Translations under genes and position numbers: made by a program
Shown: in pieces, positions 544 through 9,963 of the stretch
Position numbering within the stretch: the first letter of the stretch is position 1
How the letters are laid out: the number at the start of each line of letters is the position of its first letter
Notes under the pieces: generated by a model
Seen by the model: only the letters and a program-made list of their open reading frames with translations
The model's database searches: none
Told to the model about the DNA's origin: nothing
NCBI GenBank assembly: GCA_947365485.1
Contig: CANAXK010000035.1
Coordinates: 1 to 11,094 of the forward strand
Source: an uncultured bacterium
GTDB lineage: Bacteria > Cyanobacteriota > Vampirovibrionia > Gastranaerophilales > Gastranaerophilaceae
Direction: 5' to 3'
DNA length: 11,094 bases

Positions 544-2106
544 TTACTGCTTTTCCTTTTCAGGTTTTTCTTTCTTGTCGTCGTTACCCCCGGCAGCGAC
601 ACCGAATCCGGTTGCTTGAGGGGCTCCGTCTTTGCCGTCACCTTCCGGAATTTCCGGTACTTCTTCCGGCGCTTCCATATCGTCAGGGATTTCGAGTTCT
701 AAGTCTTCAACGTTAGACATGTAGCCTTCATAATCGCCAATGGATTCGTCATAAATATCGCTTGTGGCAGTATTAAATTCTTGTGCAACTTCTCTCATGC
801 CGATTTCTGTGCCGACTTCGCCTGCCCATTTGAGTTGCTGTGTAACACCAACTGCACCGCTTGTTGCTCCGGCTGCAATTGCAGCTCCACCCATAATCCA
901 TTGTCCGATATTAAGCCCTGCCGTAGCGCATAGCCTTGCTCCGGAAGTTGCTCCATTGGCAGCATTCAAACCTTGTGCAGCTGCCTCTATGTAACAACTA
1001 GTTTGTGTTTGACTATCAAAGCTTTCAGCATAATCGGTCAAGCCCTGAACCTCTGCAACTGTTTCTGCTGCATTATCATAGCCGTCTTGATATGTATCCA
1101 TTTCATCAAAGATTTCGCCTACAACATCGGTTGTTTCTTCGGTCATTTCTTCCATAGTAACACCGAGTTCCTGCATTACAGGAACAAGCTCTTGAAGCAA
1201 AGCTTTTTCATCTTCTGTTAATGTTTCGCCGGCCTCAACTTTTGCCATAAGCTCTTCGTAGCTAGCTTTGTAAATATCAAATTCAGATTTTTGCTCTTCA
1301 ATATTTTCATTTGTCTCTTCGTTATACATTGCAGCTTCATCAGACAAGTCTATGAGTTCCGCTCCCATAGCATCCATATCTGTTTGTGCTGCCATTGTTG
1401 CGTTCTGCGCATTTGTCATTTCGTCCTGCAATTCATCACAAGCTTCTTTTTGGGTTTTGTTTGGTTTTTTAGCTAAATAAGTAGCTGTTGTTGCAATTGC
1501 TATACCTGCTGAAACCCAAGCACTTGCGCCGGCTTTTTTTGCACCTTCTTTAGAAGCTTCCTTAGAAGCTTCCTTTCCGGCTTCTTTTCCGACCTCTTTT
1601 GCAGCTTCTTTTCCGACTTCTTTTGAAGCTTCTTTGGTTGCCTCTTTCGTTGCTTCTTTAGCAACTTCTTTGCTTGCTTCTTTGGCTGCTGCTTTTCCGG
1701 TGATCTTACCTGCTACTTTTTTTACTGCATTGCCAACGGCTTTGGCTACGACTGGACCAGTCGTCATTACAGCACCTGCAACTGCACCTGCTGAATCTAC
1801 AGCTGTACGAGTCCACATCCCGCCAGTCTTTCCGCTGTAACCACCGGTAGCCTCTTTACCGCTGTCCTTGCCCTTATTAACAGCTCTGGAGAAATCATCG
1901 TCTTCTATCTCATACGCATTCTCATCATCTGTAGCAGTCGCTTTCCAGTTGCTTAGCTCGCCGCTCCAGGTCTGGGTGATTTCACTCATATCACGTGACG
2001 ATATCCCCATTGTGTTGTTGCCGTAATTGTAGTTGTACCAGCATTTGTACGCGTATGACTGAGAATCGAGTGCGTTGTGTAAATTGAATGAGCCTTGAAT
2101 TGCCAT
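544..2106 (-). CDS. Unrecognised 520-aa protein with KEAx tetrad-repeat rod, Gly/Ala hydrophobic segments and acidic helical region
   Basis: No family recognised. Architecture seen: a polar, Tyr/Asn-rich N-terminus (1-60); a Gly/Ala/Val segment (102-137); thirteen four-residue units (142-193), twelve starting K-E and the last K-K, predicted as a long charged helix; a short hydrophobic stretch (194-212); an acidic, Met/Glu-rich region likely to form helices or coiled coil (216-380); a second Gly/Ala-rich hydrophobic stretch (about 390-430); and an acidic tail ending in Lys/Glu (490-520). No classical signal peptide. The layout of helical rods around glycine-rich amphipathic segments would suit a membrane-interacting or surface protein, but that is only analogy. 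Start ATG at 2104-2106 is supported by GGAGGG at 2110-2115, 3 nt upstream, rather tight spacing. It lies 103 nt downstream of the HTH-repeat gene. Confidence 0.8.
   Translation of the reverse strand: MAIQGSFNLHNALDSQSYAYKCWYNYNYGNNTMGISSRDMSEITQTWSGELSNWKATATDDENAYEIEDDDFSRAVNKGKDSGKEATGGYSGKTGGMWTRTAVDSAGAVAGAVMTTGPVVAKAVGNAVKKVAGKITGKAAAKEASKEVAKEATKEATKEASKEVGKEAAKEVGKEAGKEASKEASKEGAKKAGASAWVSAGIAIATTATYLAKKPNKTQKEACDELQDEMTNAQNATMAAQTDMDAMGAELIDLSDEAAMYNEETNENIEEQKSEFDIYKASYEELMAKVEAGETLTEDEKALLQELVPVMQELGVTMEEMTEETTDVVGEIFDEMDTYQDGYDNAAETVAEVQGLTDYAESFDSQTQTSCYIEAAAQGLNAANGATSGARLCATAGLNIGQWIMGGAAIAAGATSGAVGVTQQLKWAGEVGTEIGMREVAQEFNTATSDIYDESIGDYEGYMSNVEDLELEIPDDMEAPEEVPEIPEGDGKDGAPQATGFGVAAGGNDDKKEKPEKEKQ
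1528..1683 (-). repeat. In-frame 12-bp tandem repeat encoding 13 tetrads (KE-A/V-x)
   Basis: Residues 142-193 of the 520-aa protein are thirteen consecutive four-residue units, twelve beginning Lys-Glu and the last Lys-Lys; position 3 is Ala or Val (once Gly) and position 4 is Ser, Thr, Ala or Gly. At DNA level this is a diverged 12-bp tandem array, so copy number could change without breaking the frame. Confidence 0.9.
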
Positions 2107-2209: not shown

Positions 2210-3115
2210 CTACTTTGATTTTTTTGCGTATTTATAACGTTTATCTTTCACAGTCAGTTTTGAGATTCCGAGAATCTCAGCAATCTCCTGATCTGAAAGA
2301 TTTTTGTTAAAAAGCTTCTTAACGTTTTCTTGACGCACTTCAAGTGTTGATTTTGGGGAGTACTTTTTGACGTAATGATAAACAGTGGAGACTTTTTTAC
2401 CAAGTTTTTCTGCGATTTCTTCCAACTTGTATCCGGCATCAACGTAAGGCTGGATTAAAGTTTCCATTTTTTTGCGGTTCATTTTGGAGATTGACTCCAG
2501 ACCAAAGCTCTTAGCAGAAGCTGAAACATAGCTGTTAGAAACGCCTAAAATTTTGGCAATTTCGCGTCCGCTTTTACCCTGATTAATTAAATTCTCCAGC
2601 TCTTCCCGTGTTATCTTCTTTTTCAACACGTGGGGTCTTCTGTATCCTGCTCTTTTGTAGTGATCCTGAACAGAGCTTTTTGAAATATTAAGCTTTTCCG
2701 CTATTTCTTGCGTGCTTAATCCATTTTTGACCTCTTCCATAACCTTGGTTGTTATTTTTTCAATAGCTAATTTTAAAGGCAATGTACCTCGTGATTTCTT
2801 TTGCGATGAATAGATTTTTGTTCTGCCGTATCCGGTTAATTCTGTAATTTCATCAACAGAAAGTCCTTCTTCAACATACTTGTTTATCTGTTGAGCCGCG
2901 CTTTTCATGTTTCTGGCATAAACAGGGGTTAATTCGTAATCCTTTAAAAGCCTTGAAACAGAACTTCTGCTGCACTTAAGCTCATTAGCAATTTCTGTGT
3001 TGCTCAAACCCATATTCAGCATTGACTGCAGTTTGGATTTTGTTACATTTATTCTTATCTGTCCTGTAAAACTCTTATTGTAATTGTTTTGACTATGTAT
3101 TGTTGTGATTTGCAT
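2210..3115 (-). CDS. Six-fold helix-turn-helix repeat protein (putative modular DNA-binding protein)
   Basis: A 301-aa protein built almost entirely of resolvase/Hin-type helix-turn-helix units. Each unit reads roughly hydrophobic helix, G-(L/K/Y), polar, then EIAxxLGxSxxxVxxxxK. The six copies span about residues 26-62, 74-110, 121-158, 170-206, 217-253 and 261-298. The turn Gly falls at 36, 84, 132, 180 and 228, exactly 48 residues apart, and the sixth unit comes 44 residues later with Asn272. There is no catalytic or ligand domain, so DNA binding is inferred; targets unknown. A short polar leader ends in SFTG (15-18). The open frame extends to an ATG at 3184, but that sits inside the ahcY terminator; ATG 3115 has AGGAG at 3126-3130 with 10-nt spacing and is preferred. 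It probably has its own promoter (3137-3169). Unrelated known modular DNA binders cannot be excluded as relatives. Confidence 0.85.
   Translation of the reverse strand: MQITTIHSQNNYNKSFTGQIRINVTKSKLQSMLNMGLSNTEIANELKCSRSSVSRLLKDYELTPVYARNMKSAAQQINKYVEEGLSVDEITELTGYGRTKIYSSQKKSRGTLPLKLAIEKITTKVMEEVKNGLSTQEIAEKLNISKSSVQDHYKRAGYRRPHVLKKKITREELENLINQGKSGREIAKILGVSNSYVSASAKSFGLESISKMNRKKMETLIQPYVDAGYKLEEIAEKLGKKVSTVYHYVKKYSPKSTLEVRQENVKKLFNKNLSDQEIAEILGISKLTVKDKRYKYAKKSK
2228..3040 (-). repeat. Diverged 144-bp tandem repeat encoding the six HTH units
   Basis: The first five HTH units have identical 48-codon spacing and the sixth is 44 codons on. The core E-I sits at residues 41-42, 89-90, 137-138, 185-186, 233-234 and 277-278. 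This implies tandem duplication of a 144-bp unit followed by strong sequence divergence. Confidence 0.8.
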
Positions 3116-3125
3116 TTTAAAATAA

Positions 3126-3130
3126 CTCCT
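3126..3130 (-). promoter_or_regulatory. Ribosome binding site fixing the HTH-protein start
   Basis: AGGAG on the minus strand, 10 nt before the ATG at 3113-3115. It argues against the upstream ATG at 3184, which would place the start in the ahcY terminator stem. Confidence 0.75.
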
Positions 3131-3136
3131 TTTGTT

Positions 3137-3203: not shown

Positions 3204-4644
<1,441 letters not shown>

Positions 4645-4662
4645 AAATCCATATCCATCGAC

Positions 4663-7600
4663 TTAGTCACGGAGCTTAACCCCTGTAACTTTTGAAATCC
4701 CCTTCTCTTTCTGCGTAACCCCGATTGTGCGGTTTGCAGACTCAATCATCGGCTTTCTGTGGCTTACAACAATAAACTGAGTTGTTTCTGCCTGTGACTG
4801 AACAATGTGTGCAAGCTTCTCAACATTGATACCGTCCAAACTTGCGTCAACCTCGTCAAATGCGTAGAAAGGCGCAGGCATGTATTTCTGGATTGCAAAC
4901 ACAAAAGACAAAGCTGTTAAAGCCTTTTCTCCGCCTGACATGCCGGCAAGCCGCTGCTTCTTTTTGTCTCTCGGCTGCGCCTCAATGTCGAGCCCGCCTT
5001 CAAACGGCCGCTCTTCGTTCTCCAGAATCAATGTCCCTTCACCGTCAGAAAGCCTGTGGAAAATGTCCTTGAAGTTTTCGTTGATAACGTTGTAAGTCTT
5101 GAGGAAAGTCTCTTTCTTCAAATCCTCATAACCCTTCATTCGCTCCAAAATCTGCTCGCGCTCATGGCTCAATGTCTCAATCTGACCCTGTAATTCCTGC
5201 TGGCGTGCTGAAACCTTTTCAAAATCCTCTAACGCCTTCATGTTAACCGCGCCAAGCTCATCCATTCGTTTTTGGAGTCTCTGAATACGGTTTGTAATTT
5301 CTTCGATTGACATCTCAACAGGTGTCAAATCATTAATATTTACTCCTGATTCTGTCAAAAGATTCTTTGTTTCTTCAAGCTGCGGTTCCAATTCGCGGCG
5401 TCTTGCCTTGAATGACTCAATTTGCTCTGCAATCTTTTCAATGTCAGAAGCCTTCAGATTCTTCTGGGTCTCAATATCAACAAGGTCTTTGTTAATGTCG
5501 TCGCGCTGTTTCAAAAGCTCGCCAAGCTTGTCTGTGATTTCTTTAATCTGGACTTCCAGAACCTCAAGCTGCTCGTTCAAACCATTGATTTCTTCTGCAA
5601 ACTTAGCCTTATCAAGAGCCAAATCCCTGTTTACACCAAGCGTTCTGGAAATTGTGTCATTGTGGGTGTTAATCGTTGTTTTGATAAAATCAATTCTCTG
5701 ATGAAGCCCGTCTATCTCATTGTTGGCATCAGCCATGTTCTTTTCGTAGCGCTTGATTTCGGCTTCCACGCCTGCTGTTTTTTCTTTCAGGTCTTTCAAG
5801 TCAGCGTCGTTCATGAGTTTTTCAACTTCTGAAATCGAGGTCTGAACATCGGTCATTTTTTCAGAAATTCCGATGTGCTCTTCTTCAATCTTGTCAAGAG
5901 TTTTTTCTATGCCGGAAATCTCAGGCTCGGTTGTTTTGATAAACTCCTGTTTCTCATCAATGTTTTTCTGTGTGTTTTCAAAACTTGTTTCAAGATTCGA
6001 CAACTCCATTTTTGCTTTGTTAAATTCAGTCGTTGAAGAAGAATACTTCCCTCTAACGTCTTCCATTTTAGCTTCCAAGCTTGAGCGTTTTGAAATCAAC
6101 GCAGAGTACTTTGACTCCATTTCTTTAAGTCTCGCTCTAAATGTGTCAAGCTCGCTGTCAGAGTTTTGGGCGAATTTTAAGCCGGTTTTTCTGATCGCAC
6201 CGCCGGTGATTGAACCTGATTTTTCAAAAAGGTCGCCGGACAATGTCACCATTCTGTATTTTCCGATAAGCTTGTTTGCAACGCTTCTATCTTCAACAAC
6301 AAGAGTTTCGCCAACCGCATAATAAAAAGCGTTCAAATACTCGTCATCAAAATCAATGAGGTTGATTGCAAAATCAATAACTCCCTTTTCTTTAGGAAGA
6401 TTAAGACTCCTCGGGCACTTAACAATCTTGTTCAAAGGAACAAAAGTTGCCCTGCCTGCGTTTGAGGATTTGAGAAGCTCAATACAAGTTGAGGCTACAT
6501 GTTCATCATCTACAACGATATGCGCCATTCTTCCGCCTACCGCGATTTCCATTGCGGTAGAGTACTCTTCATCGACCTGACCCAGCTTCATTAGTGGCGC
6601 ATGTACGCCACGGATGTTTGCGTTTACAACTGTATCAACCGCACGTCCGAGGTTAGCATCCTCGCTTGCCTGTTTAGCAGCTTCAAGCATGTATATCTTC
6701 TTACGCGCTGCCTGAAGGTCATAGTCCATGTCTGTAATTTCGTTTTTAGTCTTATCATACTCATTTAATGTATTTTTAAGGATAATTTTGAAATCGTCAA
6801 GTTCTTTTCCCAGCTGTTCAATCAAAAGCTCTTTTGAAGCCTTTGTCTCTGAAAAATTAGCCTTGAAAGTCTCAAGCTCGGTTAATTTTCTCTTCGCATC
6901 CTCAACAGCCTTCTTCTTTGTAGAAAGGTCAGCTTCCAATGGTGCCTGCTTCTGGATAAGCTTTGTTTCCTTGTCCTGCAAATCCTCAAGCTCTTTTCTC
7001 AAAGCGTTTCGTTTCTCGATATGTTTTTCAGCGGTCTCGTTTAAGCCTGACATGTCTTCCAGAATTTTGTGAAGAATTGCTTTTTGCTCGTCAATATTCT
7101 TCTGAATCCCTTTGATTTCGTCCTGCTTGAGCGTAATTTTTAGTTCAGAATCCTTGATTTTACCTTCCTGAACCTCAATCCCGTTTTTGGTGTTCTCAAT
7201 TGTTTTGAGGTTGTCCTGAATCTGCTTGTCAGCAAACGTTATTGAGGAATTTTTGCGCGAAATCGAACCCTTGATTTCTTCTGCTTTTTGTTTTAATTCA
7301 AGCTGGTGAGCCTCGCCTTTTTCCTTGATTGTTGCAGAAATCTCGTCATACTTTTCCTTGATAAGTTTCAGACGCTCTTCAAGGTCTTTTGACTTAAGTT
7401 CTTCTTCTTTTTTGCGTTTAGTAAACTCCAGAATATTTTCATGCGCTTTTTCAAGGTTCCTGCGCAGGTCAAAGAACTTAACCGTGTTTATCTGGCTTTC
7501 AAGCCCTGATTTTTCATCCTTTAATTTCTGATATTTCAATGCAACTTCGCGTTCTTCGTTCAGCTGTTCAAGGCGCGTGTTAACTTCGTTCAGAATCAGA

Positions 7601-8154
7601 GTTGAATTAACAACCCGCTTTTCAACTGTTTCAAGTTCGTTGGTAGCCTGTTCTATACGACGGTCAAAGTCTGCAACTCCGGCGATTTCGTCAATAATTT
7701 TTCTGCGCTCGCCCGGAGTGCAGTTTGTAATACTCATTACATCGCCCTGCATCATTACGTTGTAGCTGTTCGGTGTAATGTTGTATTTTTCAAGCTTAGC
7801 ATGGATATCAGAAAGTGTTGCAATCTTGTCATCCAGGTAATAAATACTGTTGAAGCCCTGAGTGGATTTGCGGATTCTTCTTGCAACCGAAAAATCACCG
7901 TCTTCTGTTTCTCCGAAGGTCACTTTTACAAAAGCTTCGTTTCTTTTGTTGTAGGTGGAGATTAGGTGGAAAAGCTTTTCAGCACGCAAAGTACGGCTGG
8001 TTGAGAGTCCGAGAGCAAACAGGATGCTGTCGATAATATTACTTTTGCCGGAACCGTTCGGGCCGGAAATCGTAGTAAACCCTTTGAGCATAGGTATTTC
8101 GACTTTGTTTGCAAACGATTTGAAGTTATCAACTTCCAGCTGCTTTATATACAT
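4663..8154 (-). CDS. smc: Chromosome segregation/condensation ATPase SMC
   Basis: SMC dimers with ScpA/ScpB compact and help segregate the chromosome by ATP-driven DNA looping. The 1163-aa chain has the full architecture: N-terminal head with Walker A GPNGSGKS (31-38) and Q-loop region MQGDVMSI; a first long coiled coil (about 165-500); a hinge (about 505-655) with RGVHAP near 513 and GGAIRKTG near 653; a returning coiled coil (about 660-1030); and a C-terminal head with signature MSGGEKALTAL (about 1070) and Walker B FYAFDEVDAS (about 1098). The LAGMSGGEK and PAPFYAFDEVD wording matches the archaeal-like SMC of cyanobacteria rather than the Firmicute LSGGE form, supporting the proposed lineage. 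ATG at 8154 has AGAGGG (8161-8166) 6 nt upstream and a near-consensus promoter. It heads a unit with the 54-aa ORF and ahcY. Confidence 0.97.
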   Translation of the reverse strand: MYIKQLEVDNFKSFANKVEIPMLKGFTTISGPNGSGKSNIIDSILFALGLSTSRTLRAEKLFHLISTYNKRNEAFVKVTFGETEDGDFSVARRIRKSTQGFNSIYYLDDKIATLSDIHAKLEKYNITPNSYNVMMQGDVMSITNCTPGERRKIIDEIAGVADFDRRIEQATNELETVEKRVVNSTLILNEVNTRLEQLNEEREVALKYQKLKDEKSGLESQINTVKFFDLRRNLEKAHENILEFTKRKKEEELKSKDLEERLKLIKEKYDEISATIKEKGEAHQLELKQKAEEIKGSISRKNSSITFADKQIQDNLKTIENTKNGIEVQEGKIKDSELKITLKQDEIKGIQKNIDEQKAILHKILEDMSGLNETAEKHIEKRNALRKELEDLQDKETKLIQKQAPLEADLSTKKKAVEDAKRKLTELETFKANFSETKASKELLIEQLGKELDDFKIILKNTLNEYDKTKNEITDMDYDLQAARKKIYMLEAAKQASEDANLGRAVDTVVNANIRGVHAPLMKLGQVDEEYSTAMEIAVGGRMAHIVVDDEHVASTCIELLKSSNAGRATFVPLNKIVKCPRSLNLPKEKGVIDFAINLIDFDDEYLNAFYYAVGETLVVEDRSVANKLIGKYRMVTLSGDLFEKSGSITGGAIRKTGLKFAQNSDSELDTFRARLKEMESKYSALISKRSSLEAKMEDVRGKYSSSTTEFNKAKMELSNLETSFENTQKNIDEKQEFIKTTEPEISGIEKTLDKIEEEHIGISEKMTDVQTSISEVEKLMNDADLKDLKEKTAGVEAEIKRYEKNMADANNEIDGLHQRIDFIKTTINTHNDTISRTLGVNRDLALDKAKFAEEINGLNEQLEVLEVQIKEITDKLGELLKQRDDINKDLVDIETQKNLKASDIEKIAEQIESFKARRRELEPQLEETKNLLTESGVNINDLTPVEMSIEEITNRIQRLQKRMDELGAVNMKALEDFEKVSARQQELQGQIETLSHEREQILERMKGYEDLKKETFLKTYNVINENFKDIFHRLSDGEGTLILENEERPFEGGLDIEAQPRDKKKQRLAGMSGGEKALTALSFVFAIQKYMPAPFYAFDEVDASLDGINVEKLAHIVQSQAETTQFIVVSHRKPMIESANRTIGVTQKEKGISKVTGVKLRD

Positions 8155-8227: not shown

Positions 8228-8344
8228 GCGGTCGGGCAGCTAAGAAGTTAGGCAGCTAAGCTAATATCTTTTGACCGTGGTGAGGGTTAAGATTACATTT
8301 AAAACTTCCCAGCTGTCTAGCTGCTTGGCTTCTCAGCTGCTCTT
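8228..8344. repeat. Intergenic repeat with imperfect inverted arms built of 16-bp GCAGCT units
   Basis: Left arm: GGCAGCTAAG occurs exactly twice, at 8235 and 8251, 16 bp apart. Right arm (8306-8342) read on the minus strand has the same 16-bp phasing: a GCAGCTGAGAAGCC unit, then GCAGCTAGACAGCT. First units of the two arms match at 12 of 16 positions, and the differences are all transitions. Between them lies a non-coding core containing GGTGAGGG (8279-8286), also present at 526-533. The 194-nt gap 8155-8348 otherwise holds only the smc promoter and ribosome binding site. Confidence 0.7.
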
Positions 8345-8348
8345 CCTT

Positions 8349-9180: not shown

Positions 9181-9963
9181 TTAGTTTTGTCTGTTGTTTT
9201 TTAAATAATTCGTTACATTTGGAGACAAAGAAATATTTTGAAGCAGCATGTTGTAACGCTTCAAATCCCCGATATTAGAGGCTTCTTCCAGCAAATCCCG
9301 CTGGGTGGAAATACTCATCTTCTTATCTTCACTTTGTAAAGATTTGTTATCTTTAGTCTCAATCTTTCTTATAACAGAATCAATGTCAGTGGAAGTCGAA
9401 ATCCCGTATTTCGAAGCAATCTGCTTAACAGAAGCACCTGCTGGCAGTCTGTAAAGCCAGTTAATCGAGTGTTTATCATTCTCCGAAAGCGCTGCAACTC
9501 CGTACTGGTGCGGGGTGTACATAATATCTTCTCTGTAAGGGCTGTGGTTGAGCCCGAGCGCATGTCCGACTTCGTGCAGAATCGTGTGGTAGACTTCGAT
9601 GTCACTGTCATACTGTTTGTGGATTCTTCCGTCTGTTAGTCCGATAGACACTTCTGCGCCGTACAATCTACCTTGAGCATCCCAGTTGAAGTAGCAGTGG
9701 CCGAGAGCCTGTCTGTCAACGCGTTTCCAGTCAACATTGATATTGGATTCCAGAAGCACATTTGTAATCCTGAAATGCAGTTTTCCGCCTGTTGCTGCAG
9801 CCCACACAGAAAACGCATCCATAACCATTTTGCGAAATTTAGCGTCCTCTCCGGGTTTTGAGTAGAACTTCATCGGTGCAATATAGACAACCAGATTATT
9901 GACCGGCCATCTCATGATGTTTCCGTTTTTTATACTGCCGTTAAGATAGGTTCGCTTCTGCAT
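9181..9963 (-). CDS. Matrixin-like zinc metalloprotease (metzincin, M10-type) without signal peptide
   Basis: Predicted zinc endopeptidase. The metzincin motif HEVGHALGLNH (130-140) supplies three His ligands (H130, H134, H140) and the catalytic Glu131; the Met-turn follows at DIMY (M148). Upstream features typical of the matrixin fold: RWPVNNLVVYIAP (18-30) as first strand, the helix FRKMVMDAFSVWAAATG (43-59), and GAEVSIG (102-108). There is no signal peptide and no cysteine-switch propeptide; the catalytic domain starts almost at residue 18. A charged helical tail (about 165-260) carries a short SVKQIASKYGIS stretch resembling an HTH helix pair. The start is uncertain: ATG 9963 lacks a Shine-Dalgarno site, and M17 (9915) is an alternative. 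The frame upstream is open for about 13 codons but has no start codon. It lies 14 nt after yidC. Substrate unknown. Confidence 0.88.
   Translation of the reverse strand: MQKRTYLNGSIKNGNIMRWPVNNLVVYIAPMKFYSKPGEDAKFRKMVMDAFSVWAAATGGKLHFRITNVLLESNINVDWKRVDRQALGHCYFNWDAQGRLYGAEVSIGLTDGRIHKQYDSDIEVYHTILHEVGHALGLNHSPYREDIMYTPHQYGVAALSENDKHSINWLYRLPAGASVKQIASKYGISTSTDIDSVIRKIETKDNKSLQSEDKKMSISTQRDLLEEASNIGDLKRYNMLLQNISLSPNVTNYLKNNRQN

Follow-up and report, generated by a model that had tools for sequence, protein, structure and literature searches.

Six helix-turn-helix units in register: a ladder protein of an uncultured Gastranaerophilaceae bacterium

The ladder gene and its predicted fold

The stretch of DNA analyzed here, referred to as the window, comprises 11,094 nucleotides of contig CANAXK010000035.1 from the draft genome (G000, 84% complete) of an uncultured bacterium of the Gastranaerophilaceae. 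On its minus strand lies a gene for a protein of 301 residues, termed the HTH ladder, in which a short leader is followed by six helix-turn-helix (HTH) units. HTH domains are among the commonest bacterial DNA-binding folds and normally occur in ones and twos. The gene starts with an ATG at 3115 and ends with a stop codon at 2210-2212 (coordinates checked), and its parts are as follows.

2210..3115, minus strand: HTH-ladder gene, 301 residues, leader plus six HTH units
3053..3115, minus strand: N-terminal leader, residues 1-21 (MQITTIHSQNNYNKSFTGQIR), disordered in the model, of a type common to unrelated proteins of the genome
2909..3052, minus strand: unit 1, residues 22-69, turn Gly 36 (unit profile, Pfam, model)
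2765..2908, minus strand: unit 2, residues 70-117, turn Gly 84 (helix triad predicted; no Pfam match alone at E <= 0.01)
2621..2764, minus strand: unit 3, residues 118-165, turn Gly 132 (model residues 112-158 superpose on a DNA-bound DeoR domain)
2477..2620, minus strand: unit 4, residues 166-213, turn Gly 180 (unit profile, Pfam, model)
2345..2476, minus strand: unit 5, residues 214-257, turn Gly 228 (unit profile, Pfam, model)
2213..2344, minus strand: unit 6, residues 258-301, turn Asn 272, 44 residues past the turn of unit 5 (unit profile, Pfam, model)
3126..3132, minus strand: ribosome-binding site AAAGGAG, read from the sequence and kept in the 91% orthologue L027
3133..3203, minus strand: gap after the upstream gene, with a hairpin, then a T run, and TTGACA and TATAAT boxes 21 bases apart

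The initial annotation, made from the letters alone, described turn glycines exactly 48 residues apart, an E-I core in register and a sixth unit 44 residues further on. A unit profile located the turn glycines at residues 36, 84, 132, 180 and 228 and the turn residue of the sixth unit at Asn 272, and E at +5 and I at +6 were found in all six units, confirming this description. The turn positions are identical in the window protein and L027 and lie one residue earlier throughout in the relative P0002. Units 1-5 of the window protein and L027 had served to build the profile, which leaves unit 6, P0002 and the other proteins as the independent cases. Units 1-5 share a mean identity of 26%. Pfam HTH_23 has five matches along the protein (whole-protein E 5.8e-28), and when the units were excised and searched singly, as had been proposed, five of the six matched HTH models at E <= 0.01, the exception being unit 2.

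Structure prediction of the whole chain without DNA (AlphaFold2) gave 18 helices arranged as six triads, one HTH triad in each unit, at moderate confidence (predicted local distance difference test, pLDDT, 70.8). Residues 1-20 are disordered (pLDDT < 50), in agreement with the earlier view that the protein holds nothing but units and a short leader. The model of a nine-unit relative, made from 30 sequences, contains 27 unit helices plus six linker helices (mean pLDDT 83.5). The relative placement of the units is of low confidence, with predicted template-modelling scores of 0.29 for the six-unit and 0.38 for the nine-unit model. The ladder carries a net positive charge (57 K/R vs 31 D/E, isoelectric point 9.8). 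With several tandem units that bear the HTH signature and the predicted HTH fold, it is a protein of the multi-HTH kind.

The best whole-chain matches in PDB are repeat proteins, namely the 'CAP repeat' 8vd6 and the designed helical repeat 5cwb. These matches, together with the linker helices predicted in the nine-unit relative, would suit an alpha-helical scaffold that has lost DNA binding and employs its HTH units for protein contacts. Such a role is considered very unlikely, given the strong positive charge, the HTH signature in every unit and a between-unit variation that is concentrated in helix 3. The best PDB match by both sequence and Foldseek, 8vd6, has the signature G-K-T-xx-E-I-A in common with the ladder; unlike the ladder, it has a 33-residue period and near-identical repeats and is probably artificial.

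The upstream neighbour of the ladder gene (3204-4469, minus strand) is presumably ahcY, and the gene at 4663-8154 is taken to be an SMC gene, both having been recognized by eye. The terminator-like hairpin and T run 3' of ahcY were likewise found by eye, and an automatic scan listed neither hairpin nor promoter; together with the TTGACA and TATAAT boxes, they suggest that the ladder gene is transcribed separately. On the other side, 544-2106 (minus strand) encodes a 520-residue protein without a Pfam match above threshold. Compared with its 522-residue counterpart beside the orthologue (L027:7010-8578), residues ~76-200 of this protein are swapped for a different sequence between similar flanks. 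Further away, 9181-9963 (minus strand) encodes a Matrixin-like protease (Pfam M10, E 5.7e-14), in which no signal peptide was seen by eye and a weak HTH-like stretch lies near the C-terminus (HTH_23, E 0.016). Lookalikes of this protease occur close to ladders in L052 and L054 (by eye).

Unit spacing, unit number and distribution

The initial annotation took the preserved spacing of the units to suggest selection on geometry, with insertions and deletions excluded from the first five units, and named random linker lengths among homologues as a refutation. In the 91% and 63% orthologues the spacing is identical, and the alignment has no gaps apart from a single residue in the leader and another at the C-terminus. 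L027, which stems from a metagenome-assembled contig (CATLDC010000002.1) of an uncultured Candidatus Melainabacteria bacterium, is flanked by the same genes as the window ladder. A second ladder in the window's genome (contig C29, 480 residues) belongs to a subfamily with a pitch of 52 residues. Among 272 intervals in this subfamily, 218 measure 52 residues, 36 measure 51 and 18 differ otherwise, and 49 of the 54 deviating intervals deviate by 1-2 residues; these counts are not independent, because the proteins are related. Linker lengths are thus not random inside the family, and the spacing is inherited and largely kept. The exclusion of insertions and deletions holds for the first five units of the six-unit orthologues, where 48 is retained, and fails for the family at large, in which the linkers are not perfectly rigid.

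Unit number in the 52-residue subfamily changes by whole units. Of the 36 proteins scanned, 28 have nine units; eight units are found in two, seven in four and six in two. Three of the seven-unit members correspond to units 3-9 in order, and of the seven units of the fourth, six correspond to 4-9. Both six-unit members also correspond to 4-9, leaving one or two units unassigned. In other subfamilies the pitch is 54-62 or 59-63 residues. As a control, eight distant multi-HTH proteins were measured, whose steps range from 42 to 112 residues and are mostly irregular. They were taken from the same homology searches, and units may have been missed where the steps are long. P0003 is the exception, its seven units being almost evenly set at 48-51. 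The pitch is a property of the family, yet small changes are tolerated at some linkers.

A protein search with the six-unit ladder returned two relatives at E <= 0.001, a three-row profile eight rows at 0.01, and a search with the nine-unit protein 40 rows, its own entry included. The six-unit query matches 12 of 57 whole genomes, including one outside the genus (G056) whose match is a response-regulator tail by sequence. The nine-unit profile matches 10 of 77 genomes at 1e-10, all within the genus, and none of the 31 genomes outside it. Counted by hand, both searches together give matches in 16 of the 46 genus genomes; for 12 genus genomes the nine-unit profile was the only query. Unit profiles confirm at least three units in 14 of these 16 genomes and at least six units in nine; the matches in G013 and G018 were not confirmed in this way. 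By eye, the gene neighbours of ladders vary between sites. Among the genomes searched, only one genus has the family of fixed-pitch, leader-tagged HTH ladders. The window's genome contains another HTH-array gene (contig C32, L010:1636-2496), which is truncated at the contig end.

Multi-HTH proteins that are more distantly related carry a GIY-YIG domain (P0008 and P0009, by precomputed Pfam accession) or an HNH-like part (P0004, by eye), and transposase and resolvase HTH families are found among the matches. The ladder might on this basis be what is left of a mobile element, or of the DNA-binding portion of a homing endonuclease. This origin appears exceedingly unlikely: the ladder has no catalytic domain, occupies the same place in L027, evolves under purifying selection, and went unmatched in a search of 50,697 phage and 72,556 plasmid records, nor did its alignment match viral contigs. 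A phage or plasmid origin was set aside on these searches.

Unit-specific recognition helices and candidate DNA targets

The four most conserved core positions of the nine-unit family are equally alike between and within units (ratio ~1), and most helix-3 positions are shared 2-3 times as often by orthologous units as by the units within one protein. At six positions, which we take to be the DNA-contacting ones of canonical HTH proteins, the mean ratio is 2.52, vs 1.37 at 16 other exposed positions assigned by hand from the helix pattern (20 non-redundant proteins; p 2.7e-5, or p 0.008 in an index version); it is 1.43 at eleven core positions and 2.32 at other helix-3 positions. Absolute conservation is not higher at the DNA-facing positions (0.33 vs 0.34). 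Within the six-unit lineage, P0001 and P0002 agree at +18 in 5/6 units and at +19 in 4/6, vs 2/15 and 1/15 of between-unit pairs; +15 and +22 do not follow this pattern, and +14 agrees in 2/6 units. Because helix 3 differs more between units than between orthologues, it is likely that each unit of a chain has inherited a specificity of its own, the simplest targets being successive DNA subsites.

Between the window gene and L027, the ratio of non-synonymous to synonymous substitution rates (dN/dS) is 0.112 overall and 0.067 in helix 3. The neighbours yield 0.025 (ahcY) and 0.009 (SMC), indicating that the ladder evolves faster than they do and is still constrained by purifying selection.

The initial annotation had proposed a modular protein reading an extended DNA site, or several sites at once, and possibly organizing DNA. 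The HTH folds, the inherited spacing, the unit-specific helix 3 and the positive charge support this proposal in part. The reading favored here, with a probability of roughly 0.6, is that of a stand-alone chromosomal gene for a basic, modular, sequence-specific DNA-binding protein that reads one extended site. Six trihelical HTH domains, 48 residues apart on one chain, would place their recognition helices on successive short subsites of one long, non-palindromic site, in the manner of Cbp1 along a repeat of a CRISPR (clustered regularly interspaced short palindromic repeats) array. By analogy with Cbp1, the six units may cover about 50 base pairs (bp). The most likely target would be the bacterium's own chromosome, on which the ladder may act as a site-specific repressor or a local chromatin protein.

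Cbp1 is the nearest parallel considered for this mode of action. Its tandem HTH domains are described as joined by short linkers, arisen by duplication and ordered as three units along the CRISPR repeat (PMC10883916). Tandem HTH units are common to both proteins, and ladder residues 73-198 align to positions 4-128 of the Cbp1 model (NCBIfam NF040595; PDB 2lvs). The ladder reaches 47.4 bits (E 1.7e-12) against a cut-off of 140, has six units rather than three, possesses a leader and resides in a bacterium, whereas Cbp1 is archaeal. None of 22 genus genomes, among them the 84% complete draft of the window, yielded Cas1, vs 10 of 15 outside the genus, the arrays themselves not having been searched; CRISPR repeats are an unlikely target on this count, which argues against a Cbp1-like role at arrays, and CRISPR-repeat binding was set aside for the genus. 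As far as is visible, the ladder may work like Cbp1, yet by score, unit number and host it is no Cbp1.

This genome contains dispersed intergenic arrays whose 8-bp unit is AGCTGCYT or a variant such as AGCTTCTC; in the window they lie at ~8228-8345 and 487-510, the former copy being absent from the same place in L027. Exact AGCTGCYTAGCTGC sites number 14 in the window's genome and 15 in G077, the genome of L027, these being both known six-unit-ladder genomes; none occur in 43 of 45 other genus genomes, and the pattern read backwards occurs nowhere. The ladder might coat such arrays as Cbp1 coats CRISPR repeats, and their period of eight would fit a footprint of about 8 bp per HTH unit, as in Cbp1. 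We regard this target as highly doubtful. The two genomes are close relatives and represent one event; sites also occur in four genomes without a ladder match, namely G006 (4), G023 (1), G038 (5) and G069 (1, searched for ladders with the nine-unit profile only); the nine-unit-ladder genomes other than the window's have no such sites; and, with no Cas1 found in the 22 genus genomes searched, CRISPR repeats themselves are an unlikely target. Another intergenic repeat, of ~40 bp (CCCTCTCCTTAGGGAGAGGGCTAGGGTGAGGGGTCAA and variants), is likewise dispersed and was seen in L011, L030, L031, L033, L034, L036 and others, and variants of it are also present in G009.

Other known proteins resemble the ladder in part. 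Its units match the trihelical Pfam models HTH_23, HTH_28, HTH_38 and resolvase-type HTH. Domains of these families usually stand single or double beside a partner domain, whereas the ladder has six in a row and nothing else. The Pax paired domain, the DNA-binding domains of Tc3 and Mos1 transposases and Reb1, which appear in the structural match lists mostly with one unit or a high root-mean-square deviation, likewise set two or more HTH or Myb-like units per chain along DNA. They have fewer units than the ladder and other partner domains. Among the matches listed by a literature search on HTH arrays, no title or abstract opening describes such a protein, and searches on Gastranaerophilales HTH or N-terminal motifs, Vampirovibrionia secretion systems and tandem HTH repeat-binding returned no paper.

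The leader and a second flagellar-type export gate

Ladders begin with M-x-I, followed by a stretch in which Asn, Tyr, Pro, Thr and Gln are frequent and Glu, Asp and Gly scarce; next comes F-x-[GSAR]-x, mostly with Lys. By this lax pattern, all 36 ladder proteins examined (P0013 and P0044 left out) have the motif ahead of the first unit, between residues 8 and 35, and Ile is third in 29 of them. The motif is present in 14 of 15 ladders taken from genomes, L051 having the motif later, and the leader is kept in all six members of the 52-residue subfamily with seven or six units. In the window's genome, the lax pattern shows no excess, with 14 of 365 N-termini vs a shuffled mean of 10.4 (maximum 18) and 39 of 1,798 internal Met.

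A stricter profile was trained on 30 ladder leaders, omitting P0002, P0013 and P0044 (the last two with uncertain starts), the near copies P0022 and P0026, and P0023, P0027 and P0043 (motif placement ambiguous). At 10 bits, it marks 9 of 365 N-termini of the window's genome, two of them on ladders and seven on other proteins; among internal Met it marks 3 of 1,798, and among internal places 11 of 10,966. For loci of relatives, which were chosen for their ladders, the numbers are 12/153 (nine ladders) vs 1/907 and 6/5,131; for G009, 3/187 vs 0/947 and 10/13,645; and for the outgroup G039, 1/169 vs 0/849 and 9/12,371. Gene starts are approximate because genes were called by a simple longest-frame script. 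The leader (M-x-I..F-x-[GSA]-K) is thus borne by ~2% of the other sampled proteins of the window's genome. The seven non-ladder proteins are L035:5033-5953, L038:1602-1877, L038:4845-5453, L039:16770-17393, L044:365-1537, L046:11261-11944 and L047:6016-7185. Of ten leader-like proteins, three weaker matches included, six have no Pfam match; the other four are an M16 peptidase, an alpha/beta hydrolase and two AAA ATPases.

FlhA-family proteins occur in all 37 genomes searched, and canonical plus second FlhA kinds, full-length or fragmented, in 33 of 37 (hand-sorted rows). The second kind belongs to a divergent flagellar-type export gate that is present in addition to the canonical one (loci G000:C117 (L064), G000:C47, L066:3941-9930 and relatives), and this FlhA-like protein was itself seen in 35 of 37 (hand-sorted rows). 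In G009, its gene is grouped with FliE-, FliF- and FliH-like genes. Two FliP copies were counted in 31 of 34 genomes and flagellin was found in 36 of 37; in G046, 87% complete, no flagellin was found, and the second FlhA and one FliP are kept. A third FlhA relative (G000:C42, L065:2910-4388; 36/37 genomes by count) has only the C-terminal half, behind another N-terminal part.

The leader may be linked to this second gate. If it is an N-terminal export signal, the ladder could act on DNA outside the bacterium, like a transcription activator-like (TAL) effector made of HTH units. The constancy of the leader in ladders of different unit number, its disorder and faster change than that of the units (dN/dS 0.32, on only 10.5 synonymous sites), its occurrence on unrelated proteins by the stricter profile, the doubled FliP and FlhA and the gene content of G046 are consistent with export. 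Weighed against the lack of excess of the lax pattern, the ordinary cytoplasmic-looking folds of some leader-bearing proteins, and a second gate that scores as flagellar rather than injectisome (in G009, FlhA 697 bits, below the FlhA cut-off of 772 and above its SctV score of 585, with the adjacent FliE passing the flagellar cut-off), export of the ladder is judged unlikely. TAL effectors, which are secreted through a type III system, are likewise modular one-chain DNA readers with units of set length behind a lead segment, a resemblance of working only. Their repeats have 33-35 residues, two helices and a repeat-variable diresidue. The ladder units are three-helix HTH domains of 48 residues, and they are divergent (26% identity), whereas the repeats of TAL effectors and TALE-likes are near-identical. 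Its repeat type thus sets the ladder apart from the TAL effectors proper. The wider scenario, in which one genus of Melainabacteria-type bacteria exports leader-tagged ladders of six to nine units and a leader-bearing ~2% of its proteome through the second gate, the ladders acting on DNA outside the cell as an HTH analogue of TAL effectors, seems quite improbable.

If the ladder is indeed a reader of one extended chromosomal site, a natural chain of six HTH units, or nine in relatives, with a conserved pitch, recognition helices particular to each unit and differences by whole units between relatives would represent a new natural route to long-site recognition, and the HTH ladder would offer a possible alternative scaffold for programmable DNA binding. 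In addition, ladders give an entry to the role of the shared leader and to the cargo of the second flagellar-type gate in this lineage.
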